A DNA stretch of 64,000 nt from Haloactinopolyspora alba (GTDB taxonomy: Bacteria; Actinomycetota; Actinomycetes; Jiangellales; Jiangellaceae), in the NCBI RefSeq assembly GCF_003014555.1, contig NZ_PYGE01000009.1, positions 124,001-188,000 of the forward strand. The letters are read 5' to 3'. The position numbers and the translations under genes are program-made. A model generated the notes under the pieces. The model made no database searches. It was not told the origin of the DNA and was given only the letters and a program-made list of their open reading frames with translations. Positions within the stretch are counted from its first letter, which is position 1. Each line of letters opens with the position of its first letter. Positions 4,969-49,692 of this stretch are shown one piece after another.

Positions 4969-5019
4969 GCGCCGCCGTTCCGTGAGTGGCCGGACACGGG
5001 TTCGAGGCCCGGCCGCCGG

Positions 5020-5502
5020 TCACGCGGACGGGTGAGGCGGGCGGTCGCGACGTTGCCGGGCAGTCCGCATCGCGCTGTGCGCGGAGCCGGAGACGAGACT
5101 GCCGATCGCGACCCCGATGACGACGTTGATGGCGCTGGTCGCCAGCTGCGCGGACAGTTCCGCGTCGGGGGTGAACGGCGCCACCGCGGCGATGACGGTC
5201 ACCAGCCCGATCACCCAGCCGAAGAAGCGCAGCGGGCGCGGCGTGGTGTTCACCAGCACGTGCACCAGGCCGGTGGCCGCGAGCGCCGCGACGGCGGCAC
5301 CGATGGCGTACCACCAGGTGTTCGCGTTGCCCCACACGCCGTCGCCCTCGGGCGCCAGCACGGGCACGTCGAACAAGGCCCGCACGATGACGATGCCTGC
5401 GACGGCGATCAGCGCCGCGACGAGTGCCGAGGCGCCGCCGCCGGCCCACAGCCGACCGGCGTCGACACTCTGACGGGCAGGGTCGTTCGGCGTGTCACTC
5501 AT
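5020..5502 (-). CDS. DUF6069-family integral membrane protein
   Basis: The 160-residue protein starts at ATG 5502. It shows four hydrophobic segments: GGASALVAALIAVAGIVIVRALF, AIGAAVAALAATGLVHVLV, FFGWVIGLVTVIAAVAPF and AINVVIGVAIGSLVSG. The stretch RALFDVPVLAPEG after the first segment and TTPRPLRFFGWVIGL before the third are typical of the DUF6069 family. Function is unknown. It is transcribed away from the gene at 5628, and the palindrome at 5575-5591 lies between them, 81 bases upstream of this start. Confidence 0.8.
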   Translation of the reverse strand: MSDTPNDPARQSVDAGRLWAGGGASALVAALIAVAGIVIVRALFDVPVLAPEGDGVWGNANTWWYAIGAAVAALAATGLVHVLVNTTPRPLRFFGWVIGLVTVIAAVAPFTPDAELSAQLATSAINVVIGVAIGSLVSGSAHSAMRTARQRRDRPPHPSA

Positions 5503-5574
5503 GGTTGATACCTCCGTGCCGCGTCGGTGCGGACTACTCGGTACGACTATCGGCCGCCGACGCCGGTGTGCGGA

Positions 5575-5591
5575 TCACCCGTCGTGGGTGA
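5575..5591. promoter_or_regulatory. Regulon dyad 2 (14-bp arms)
   Basis: TCACCCGTCGTGGGTGA sits in a longer perfect inverted repeat with 14-bp arms (5567-5580 / 5586-5599) and a 5-base spacer, the longest of the set. It lies between divergent genes: 45 bases from the start at 5628 and 81 bases from the start at 5502. Confidence 0.8.
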
Positions 5592-5627
5592 TCCGCACAT
5601 CCGTCCCGCGGGACGACGCTGACGGGC

Positions 5628-10927: not shown

Positions 10928-10969
10928 GTCGGGCGGGGTTCCGGTGCGGGGACCGGAGCCGCGCCCGAC
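10928..10969. terminator. Long hairpin between convergent genes
   Basis: Two 18-base arms (10928-10945 and 10952-10969) pair at 16 of 18 positions around a 6-base loop. There is no T-run, but the position between two converging genes suits a two-way terminator. Confidence 0.6.
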
Positions 10970-25981: not shown

Positions 25982-26661
25982 GTCGCGTCGACCGATCGCA
26001 CCGTGGCCAGTTCGATGGTCCGGTCCGCTGAGGCGGCGACCTGCTCATCGTGGGTGACGATCACTGCGGCCATCTGTTCGGAGCGGATCTTGGCGAACAT
26101 CACCTCGAGGACTTCGTCGCGTGTCGCCCGGTCCAGCGCCCCGGTCGGCTCGTCAGCCAGCAGTAACGATGGCCGGGTGATCAACGCACGCGCCAGCGCC
26201 AGCCGCTGGGCCTCGCCACCGGACAAGTAGGCAGTGTCGGCAGCGGTCCGGACGCCGAGGTCCGCGATCAGCCACTCGGCATCCGCACGCACGCCATCCG
26301 GGTCACCACCTTTGAGCAGTCCCGGCAGCATGACGTTCTCCACGGGGCTCAGCTCAGGTAACAGATCGGCGTGCTGGAAGACGAAACCGATCGAGTCCAG
26401 CCGCACCTGCGCCCGTTGGGTGGAACTCATCTCGGTCAGCTCACGGTCAAGCAACCGAACCGATCCCGACGTCGGGATCCGCAGACCTGCCAGGCACGCC
26501 AAGAAGGTCGTCTTTCCGGACCCCGACGGGCCGAGTACCGCGACCGCCTCATCGGCACCGATGGTGAGGTCAGTCTGGGCGAGAAGCTGACGATCGCCCA
26601 GACTGACCTGCACCGACGAGGCCGTCAGCAACGCCGGTCGCTCTTCGACGGACTCAGACAA
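25978..26661 (-). CDS. ABC transporter ATP-binding protein (LolD/MacB type)
   Basis: The 227-residue protein has Walker A GPSGSGKTT (about residues 39-47), the Q-loop FVFQHADLLPELSPVENVMLP, signature LSGGEAQRLALARAL, Walker B LLLADEPTGALD and the switch histidine in VIVTHDEQVA. EPTGALD and the 'ENVMLP' stretch are typical of ATPases that pair with FtsX-like permeases. It sits between a four-TM protein (45 bases upstream) and the permease, so it is the middle gene of an export operon. A 39-bp part of this gene (26528-26566) recurs at 22987. Confidence 0.92.
   Translation of the reverse strand: MSESVEERPALLTASSVQVSLGDRQLLAQTDLTIGADEAVAVLGPSGSGKTTFLACLAGLRIPTSGSVRLLDRELTEMSSTQRAQVRLDSIGFVFQHADLLPELSPVENVMLPGLLKGGDPDGVRADAEWLIADLGVRTAADTAYLSGGEAQRLALARALITRPSLLLADEPTGALDRATRDEVLEVMFAKIRSEQMAAVIVTHDEQVAASADRTIELATVRSVDAT
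26528..26566 (+). repeat. 39-bp exact direct repeat, copy B (inside ATPase gene)
   Basis: This copy codes on the minus strand for T-I-G-A-D-E-A-V-A-V-L-G-P, immediately before the Walker A loop, so it is most likely the source copy. The other copy is at 22987-23025. Confidence 0.85.
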
Positions 26662-46028: not shown

Positions 46029-46385
46029 TCAGCAGCAGTGCTCTAGGTAGGCCTGCAGGTCTGCCAGCGCCTGGCGGGTCCGTTCGTTGTCGCCGCGGTA
46101 GAGCACGACCTTCCCGTCGCGGCGCGAGGTGACGATGCCACCGCGACGGAGCAGGGCGAGCTGCTGCGACGCGGTGGACTGGCTGATGCCGGCCTGCTCG
46201 GCGATCTCGCCGACGGACAGCTCCGCGCCACGTGAGAACAGCTGCATGATCTGCTGCCGGGTGGGGCTCGCCAGCGCTTTCAGGAAGTCGTGTGTCTGCG
46301 GGGCGAGCTCTGGCGCGTCACCAGGGGACCCGCAGGTCGGCGCGGGCTCGGTGGCTGCCGCGTGCTCGTCGGTCGGGTCCGGCAT
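46029..46385 (-). CDS. ArsR-family repressor with C-terminal CC pair
   Basis: The 118-residue protein has the ArsR winged helix: FLKALASPTRQQIMQLFSRGAELSVGEIAEQAGISQSTASQQLALLRRGGIVTSRRDGKVVLYRGD. It ends EHCC and has another cysteine near the start (CGSPGD); these three could bind arsenite or a soft metal. It lacks the ELCVCDL metal motif of classical ArsR. A near-perfect AT-rich palindrome (46429-46460) lies between its start and the divergent flavoprotein gene, a standard self-regulated pair. Confidence 0.9.
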   Translation of the reverse strand: MPDPTDEHAAATEPAPTCGSPGDAPELAPQTHDFLKALASPTRQQIMQLFSRGAELSVGEIAEQAGISQSTASQQLALLRRGGIVTSRRDGKVVLYRGDNERTRQALADLQAYLEHCC

Positions 46386-48837: not shown

Positions 48838-48851
48838 GGAGGTGATCGGTG

Positions 48852-49073
48852 ATGACTGACGTTCTGATCCGCAACGTAGACGATCATGATCTCGCCCGCA
48901 TCGACGAGCGAGCAGCCCGGCTGGGGCTCTCCAGGGGGGAGTACCTGCGGCGTCGTATCACCCAGGCTGCCGGGCATGAAGATGCACACCTGACGGTCAA
49001 GGACCTGCAGCGTGCCGCGGACTTGACGGAGGACCTTCTCGACGACGACGTCATGCGCGAGGCGTGGTCGTGA
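48852..49073 (+). CDS. vapB: VapB-type antitoxin (ribbon-helix-helix)
   Basis: ATG 48852 follows a near-ideal GGAGGTGAT. The 73-residue protein reads [35 protein letters not shown], a ribbon-helix-helix DNA-binding start, followed by a charged C-terminal tail ([26 protein letters not shown]) that would wrap and block the toxin. Its stop overlaps the toxin GTG by four bases. It would bind the GATATC repeat upstream to repress the operon. Confidence 0.88.
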
Positions 49074-49489
49074 CGTTCGAGGGGCCGTGGCTCATCGACA
49101 AGTCCGCTTATGCGCGACTCGGTCGGTCGTCGGGCGCCGAGTTGTGGGCAGATCGGATCGAGCGTGGCCTGGTGCACATAGCCACACCGACCGTCCTCGA
49201 AGTCGGGTACTCGGCTCGCTCCGGCGACAGCTGGGCTGCGTCGGTGACGGCGCCGCCTCTCGCCCTCATGCCGGTGGAGAACGCCACGCCGGCGATCGAG
49301 GCACGCGCGGTCGAGATTCAAGGCGTTCTGGCGCGCCAAGGTCACCACCGCGCACCATCAGTGCCGGACTTGCTGATCGCGGCCACTGCCGAGCTTGCAG
49401 GGCTCGTCGTCCTCCACCAGGACAAGGATTTCAGTCTGATCGCCGAGGTCACCGGGCAACCGCTCGAAGAGCTGGCGACCGCTGGATAG
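49070..49489 (+). CDS. vapC: VapC-type PIN-domain ribonuclease toxin
   Basis: GTG 49070 overlaps the antitoxin stop (GTGA); an earlier in-frame GTG at 49064 adds two residues. The 139-residue PIN protein has the catalytic acids in [10 protein letters not shown] (first Asp), TVLEVGYSA (Glu), [15 protein letters not shown] (Asp) and [10 protein letters not shown] (Asp). VapC toxins cut specific tRNAs or rRNA when the antitoxin is degraded. No other toxin gene is linked. Confidence 0.92.
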
Positions 49490-49500
49490 CACGCGAACGA

Positions 49501-49615
49501 TCATGGTTCGCTCGCGTCGACGATGCCGGCGTCGTGCGCGATCAGCCCGGCCTGGGTGCGGTTGGCGCAGTCCAGCTTCTCGAGCAGCTTGGAAACATAC
49601 CCCTTGATCGTGGCC
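49501..49615 (-). pseudogene. 3' fragment of a NarL/LuxR-type response regulator
   Basis: On the minus strand, ending TGA at 49501-49503, the frame reads ATIKGYVSKLLEKLDCANRTQAGLIAHDAGI and a short tail. This is the second half of a NarL-type HTH (recognition helix V-K-x-Y-V-S-K-L-L-x-K-L). The rest of the gene is missing. The break falls exactly at the hairpin element at 49617-49667, after which the glycosidase gene follows. The regulator was truncated by an insertion or deletion. Confidence 0.8.
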
Positions 49616-49616
49616 G

Positions 49617-49667
49617 TTGATCATCGGCACTTACCCGTCGTATGGGCGGGAAAGTGCCGATGATCAA
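49617..49667. repeat. 51-bp hairpin element
   Basis: Perfect 16-bp arms, TTGATCATCGGCACTT (49617-49632) and AAGTGCCGATGATCAA (49652-49667), enclose 19 bases that can pair further (CCCG/CGGG). It directly joins the truncated HTH fragment and lies 26 bases from the glycosidase stop. It may be a REP/MITE-like mobile palindrome or a strong terminator for the leftward glycosidase gene. Confidence 0.75.
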
Positions 49668-49692
49668 GCGGGAGGTCTGGTGGCCGGGCTGC

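Follow-up and report, generated by a model that had tools for sequence, protein, structure and literature searches.

The window examined here, a 64-kb stretch of the Haloactinopolyspora alba genome, contains a large glycosidase gene whose 3' end lies next to the remnant of a regulator gene, with a palindromic hairpin between the two (Table 1). Candidate toxin and antitoxin genes follow on the other side of the remnant; against FitA-like_RHH the antitoxin candidate scores 23 bits, under the cut-off of 27. Translated on the minus strand, the remnant reads STATIKGYVSKLLEKLDCANRTQAGLIAHDAGIVDASEP and then stops. It aligns with positions 30-55 of the 57 in the GerE model (PF00196; E 6.5e-4, 19.7 bits, below the Pfam cut-off of 23.5) and so corresponds to the latter half of the helix-turn-helix of a LuxR-type protein. 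A sequence-only reading of this DNA had claimed that only the end of a regulator remains and that the break coincides with a perfect 16-bp inverted repeat. Both claims are borne out: the outer 16 bp of the hairpin pair without mismatch and, because the first codon of the remnant (TCA) lies inside the palindrome, gene break and element edge agree to about one codon.

Table 1. Features of the locus in window coordinates, and copies of the repeat at the PTS EIIC/ptsI gap by locus
Feature	Position	Strand	Remarks
Ribbon-helix-helix (VapB/FitA-like) protein, antitoxin candidate	48849..49073	+	RHH_1 22.9 bits (above the cut-off of 20.5)
PIN-domain (VapC-like) protein, toxin candidate	49064..49489	+	PF01850 E 2.9e-8; ends beyond the regulator remnant
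LuxR/NarL-type regulator remnant	49501..49620	-	39 codons and stop; predicted second half of helix-turn-helix; broken at the element edge
Whole repeat element, window copy	49614..49671	.	Match to covariance model R1 minus its 7-base flanks
Core palindrome with TTGATCATCGGCACTT arms	49617..49667	.	51 bp; inverted repeat, exact arm, folding
Glycoside hydrolase family 2 protein, 1111 aa	49693..53028	-	Stop 21 bp from the element
PTS EIIC/ptsI copies	L069:1501, L070:1501, L071:1501, L111, L145:5010		

Compared with loci L001-L297 and the window, the 39-residue fragment matched its own place alone, with no intact homologue there, and one pattern for the front half of the helix-turn-helix had no match in L116-L175. 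Homologues of the glycosidase, PIN and GNAT proteins were found in nine genomes of relatives, where no contig carries two of them and no syntenic locus appeared. Two histories would explain the locus: the element may have inserted into the regulator, whose front half was later lost, or copies of the element may have recombined with each other. The sequence-only reading's suggestion that the hairpin promoted a rearrangement bringing the glycosidase gene here is thus one that may or may not hold.

The core of the element consists of two 21-nt arms (49617-49637 and 49647-49667), 95% complementary and 9 nt apart, which form the longest hairpin in the window (scan for stems of at least 16 bp, loops of 3-8 and at most two mismatches). 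Folded as RNA, it reaches -44.9 kcal/mol on the plus strand (z -9.48, matched by 0 of 200 shuffles) and -38.8 kcal/mol on the minus strand (z -8.40). With intrinsic terminators it has in common that a stable hairpin stands shortly behind a stop codon; the window copy has no U-tract behind it and is thus not a textbook intrinsic terminator, and no terminator-like site was detected between 49300 and 49900. By eye, the flanks read for other copies show no U-tract either. At gathering score, Rfam models found only a tRNA in the window, and microRNA models scored far below gathering. The window also holds further strong hairpins with sequences unlike the element, at 26567-26609, 10928-10969, 5563-5603 and 46138-46177.

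We then asked how often the hairpin occurs in the H. alba genome. The exact 16-bp arm is present seven times, two of these being the arms in the window, against none for the reversed control. A 14-bp arm with up to two mismatches gives 97 + 85 matches where the reversed control gives 7 + 7; strict palindromes number 39 against none. We built a covariance model, R1, from 35 copies of this genome that were picked by exact outer arms and oriented for most G-U pairs; because of how they were chosen and oriented, arm conservation and pairing in their alignment (A1) are partly selected. Across the 5.54-Mb genome R1 yields at least 120 strand matches, that is at least 60 places, the weakest at E 5.1e-6, and its copy numbers are lower bounds, at most 150 candidates having been scored in each genome. 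The window copy is matched at G000:C9:173607-173678 with 69.1 bits and E 9.9e-19 (window coordinates are C9 minus 124000). In this genome the full unit of about 57 bp is composed of CCCATGATCAT, CGGCACTT, an inner stem of variable sequence and a loop, after which the arm returns as its mirror image; it thus has terminal inverted repeats and consists of almost nothing else. Its bare pattern, TGATCATN{34,50}ATGATCA, occurs 73 times. The sequence-only reading had suggested a REP- or MITE-like palindrome repeated in the genome and proposed counting the 16-bp arm; the hairpin is indeed dispersed and multicopy. Its opposite case, a unique hairpin with the same neighbours in relatives, does not apply to an element found at 60 or more places and, at most of the sites compared, not shared with relatives (see below).

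The repeat extends over the whole family. At E 0.01, R1 matches all 22 Jiangellaceae genomes with 2 to at least 150 strand matches each; the match in G004 has no TGATCAT foot, and the best one in the congener G001 is degenerate (L113, L114). Bare-pattern counts in these genomes run from 0 (G004) and 5 (G001) up to 212 (G008). The TGATCAT foot is constant across lineages while the stems vary: H. alba has CGGCACTT, G010 has GTGCACTT, several Jiangella-genus genomes have CGGCGATCGACC and G020 has CGACGGTTGGC. Different stem types also occur side by side, as in G008, which alone holds several (GAACACTT, TGGCACTT, TGGCTTTT), and in G016, where an old CGGCACTT copy (L071) is found together with a CGGCGCTT copy (L105).

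The hairpin is kept despite these stem changes. Among 12 copies from G008, 324 of 324 pair cells are standard and four pairs are changed on both sides, which none of 500 shuffles equals; these copies, like 40 rows from relatives (39 places, L095 and L298 being identical), were taken from the best matches to R1, a model that rewards pairing. The signal is weaker in the H. alba genome, where 90.7% of cells are paired, compared with 89.1% for shuffles (4 of 500 reach the observed value), and a covariation score of 0.105 against 0.076 (0 of 500). In the 56 rows where genes end at just one side of the element, the transcribed strand has 46 G-U pairs and 40 A-C oppositions (22 and 24 in H. alba, 18 and 8 in relatives, 6 and 8 in others). 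Since G-U is hardly commoner than A-C, these counts lend no support to selection on the RNA strand.

Beyond Jiangellaceae, 15 of 274 genomes, spread over ten families of Actinomycetes, have at least five bare-pattern matches, while the reversed pattern finds one match in each of 6 of 296 genomes. The sequences examined for seven of these 15 genomes (G050, G077, G092, G101, G134, G152 and G168, covering five of the ten families) contain many good hairpins with a stem common within the genome, less perfect ones in G101, G134 and G152. Where a genome has a single match, as do G232, G141, G201 and G264 among others, those read lack a palindrome and lie mostly inside genes. Twenty-one outside hairpins on 20 stretches have a mean of 85% Watson-Crick pairs, seven pairs being fixed by the pattern. 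In L186-L205 and in genomes G050, G077, G092, G101, G114, G134, G152, G168, G179 and G256 the hairpins start with TGATCATGCA, TGATCATGAC, TGATCATGGG or TGATCATCGCG, depending on the genome. To go by these stems, the hairpins outside Jiangellaceae look like separate expansions. On viral contigs TGATCATN{34,50}ATGATCA matched at least 120 stretches, and none of the 80 loci examined had arms more than 75% paired. A distant blastn search with the window element against plasmid and phage records gave no match, nor did the L192 element against plasmid records.

We further investigated where copies lie relative to genes, which were called with a codon-usage finder made for this analysis that misplaces some starts. 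The 60 copies in H. alba comprise 25 in convergent gaps, 21 in tandem gaps, four in divergent gaps and ten called inside a gene. Convergent gaps account for 25 of the 50 intergenic copies but only 49 of 285 background gaps (Fisher P 3e-6), and divergent gaps for 4 of 50 against 75 of 285 (Fisher P 0.004); the background gaps, of at least 60 bp, were taken from the 60 stretches around the copies, which overlap in part, and gaps holding the element are counted among them. A gene 3' end is found within 60 bp of 48 of the 60 copies, the remaining 12 having none that near, and of 20 copies in tandem gaps, 19 are closer to the upstream stop (P 1e-5; one gap below 20 bp dropped). The element often supplies the stop codon itself: its TGA is the stop in 19 copies, and for 21 of 71 nearby gene ends the stop is the TGA within TGATCAT, which in L137 and L138 is true of the genes on either side. 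A C-terminal proline is carried by 14 of the 21 proteins that stop in the element, against 5 of 50 others. Relatives show a similar placement, with 17 convergent, 20 tandem and one divergent among the 38 of 40 rows that were classed (one place counted twice) and a gene end within 60 bp in 38 of 40 rows; outside the family this holds for 14 of 21. Of the ten copies called inside genes, only those of L154, L155 and L159 look like true in-frame inserts. In all of these the element (around 5008-5064) lies in one open frame and would encode PMIIGT..SADDHG-like peptides; by eye, the host genes code for a 1050-residue protein, an acyl-CoA-synthetase-like and a dihydrolipoamide-acyltransferase-like protein.

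Only a minority of the positions compared is shared with relatives. For 24 C-terminal segments, 21 of them with the stop in the element, we read the 110 bases behind the corresponding genes of the congener G001; the own-type element is absent at all 19 readable 3' ends, 18 of which correspond to genes with the stop in the element. This points to recent spread or recent loss, and with five pattern matches in the congener and none in G004, loss explains the result as well as gain elsewhere. Most protein pairs between the two species differ in the last few residues alone (exceptions include L121, L138 minus, L148 and L169), as would be expected had the element replaced the end of the gene. The element-free congener sites are too diverged for a target-site duplication to be read, and two of the 19 carry another repeat of about 80 bp, likewise ending in ATGATCAT.

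Two genes were followed across the family by reading 80 to 200 bases behind the stop in 21 loci each, of which G011 was unreadable for leuB and G004 for panB. Behind leuB, a hairpin is present in 3 of 20 readable genomes, with three stem types and with TGATCAT at the stop (H. alba), 5 bases behind it (G006) or 26 bases behind it (G014); the other 17 have none within 130 bases. Behind panB, it is present in 2 of 20 (H. alba at 10 bases, G014 at 100 bases). The gap between PTS EIIC and ptsI, in turn, holds a hairpin of the own type, with CGGCACTT arms, that is common to H. alba and four Jiangella-genus genomes; the other copies examined in that genus have arms other than CGGCACTT. That this copy is common across genera indicates that some copies are old and inherited. 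As read from these stems, the pattern is one of old copies apparently persisting while new types amplify.

The REP-associated transposase that the sequence-only reading proposed to look for did not turn up, and no other mover was identified. Y1_Tnp (PF01797, E 0.001) was found in 0 of 22 Jiangellaceae genomes and in 5 of 14 control genomes, and the consensus of the 35 H. alba copies has no unpaired GTAG or CGTC end tag. With no Y1_Tnp in 22 genomes, the element is therefore not a RAYT-type REP by membership; what it shares with these is being a multicopy palindrome located mostly 3' of genes. No autonomous relative with the same ends was seen in the loci examined, just the longer repeat with the ATGATCAT end. 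Open-licence PMC literature yielded no description of the repeat among the matches listed.

The TRIT terminator motif of Mycobacterium tuberculosis (Gardner 2011, RNIE) is reportedly a conserved hairpin behind stop codons. The likeness to the present element, a hairpin behind stops in an actinobacterium, is one of description and not of sequence; TRIT is named in PMC3526491, as far as its accessible part goes. The nearest described repeats are REPs, SPRITE and the Rickettsia palindromic elements. The accessible part of PMC3733652 describes the GTAG and CGTC super-families of REPs as small multicopy palindromes with a constant end motif, 20-40 bp long, that mostly follow genes in gaps of the convergent or tandem kind and are sometimes found inside genes, with CGTC-type REPs apparently having no dedicated transposase; the word "Actinobacteria" is absent from its main text. 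Our element resembles both in forming multicopy palindrome families with a constant end motif, in its placement downstream of genes and in some in-gene copies. It differs in that TGATCAT is paired on both arms, where REPs have an unpaired tag at one end, and in its length of about 57 bp. SPRITE of Streptococcus pneumoniae, as far as PMC3049150 is accessible, is likewise a terminator-like repeat family enriched in convergent gaps and at CDS 3' ends, for which co-option as terminators has been suggested; it includes a tract rich in uridines and ends in AAAA/TTTT, whereas the present element is a symmetric hairpin with no U-tract that supplies stop codons. Finally, the Rickettsia palindromic elements, given in the accessible part of a MITE review (PMC10969869) as about 150 bp with many in-gene copies, share with our repeat the occurrence of palindromes in frame within unrelated genes, here 3 of 60, all in one open frame; they differ in that most copies here sit at stop codons.

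Altogether, we lean towards a dispersed REP-like palindromic repeat of about 57 bp that is copied about the genome, is retained where it meets stop codons and provides a hairpin for the 3' ends on either side. The element, which consists of CCCATGATCAT, a stem that varies with the lineage and a short loop, followed by the first half in mirror image, would be non-autonomous, and a putative factor would copy or transpose it by recognising the hairpin together with the conserved TGATCAT foot. A copy would survive if it landed at a stop codon or shortly after one, and would provide a new stop, the placement reflecting either target choice or survival. Surviving copies would offer one or two genes a symmetric 3'-end structure, as a terminator without a U-tract or as protection of the mRNA 3' end; such a two-way role is probable. 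At the window locus, a copy lies at the end of the glycosidase gene, against a regulator without its front.

Competing explanations account for parts of these results. Ordinary intrinsic terminators, inherited with their genes and alike by look only, would suit the strong fold, the position just behind stops, the convergent enrichment and even the copy common across genera. They would not lead one to expect identical 14-bp arms at dozens of sites in a lineage-dependent sequence, 19 of 19 readable congener 3' ends free of the element, a window copy lacking a U-tract and three copies in open frame within genes, and we consider this explanation quite unlikely. Somewhat less so, but still unlikely, are binding sites of a sequence-specific protein (a nucleoid, segregation or 3'-end RNA-binding protein), with arms selected site by site and lineage stems differing because the protein co-evolves. 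This would agree with arms far better conserved than the inner stem, in part an outcome of copy selection, and with several inner positions in H. alba that keep a palindromic consensus yet show C-C or G-G oppositions; it would, however, require many sites to change together, and several stem types coexist within one genome (G008; G016).

The copy number, the placement behind genes and the occasional in-gene copies all fit REP elements of the classical kind, moved by a RAYT transposase, as the accessible part of PMC3733652 presents them, but the absence of Y1_Tnp from the 22 family genomes, against 5 of 14 controls, and a consensus carrying neither GTAG nor CGTC tag make this reading very doubtful. 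Inverted pairs of DNA uptake signals, like those of Neisseria, would give each lineage its own dialect about a constant core, and the pairs would resemble terminators. Such signals are mostly single, and here we see no free single arms, the exact 14-base arm matches listed all falling, by eye, within R1 places; an uptake function is accordingly highly improbable.

The preferred reading, a mobile REP-like repeat kept at stop codons, can be extended to the class. We give an even chance to a third, class-wide super-family of TGATCAT-tagged palindromes in Actinomycetes, with the tag paired on both sides, that would move independently of Y1, target or survive at stops and rewrite them, give many genes their transcript ends and amplify different stems in each lineage. 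Should this hold, Actinomycetes, a large class of bacteria, would harbour a mobile hairpin so far undescribed, one that settles where genes end, supplies stops and probably 3' transcript ends, and spreads without the enzyme known to move similar repeats elsewhere. What moves REP-like repeats in RAYT-free genomes, and how actinobacteria end convergent transcripts without a U-tract, thereby become testable.

A second repeat was observed alongside the hairpin. It is about 80 bp long and ends in GTGAACATGATCATT or a diverged form, sharing the ATGATCAT end with the hairpin but having no mirrored arm. The congener G001 holds at least three full copies (L266:1495-1571, L270:184-264 and L273), and weaker copies of 74-81% identity occur in H. 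alba (L132:4061-4135, L145:6829-6915 and L158:2350-2427).
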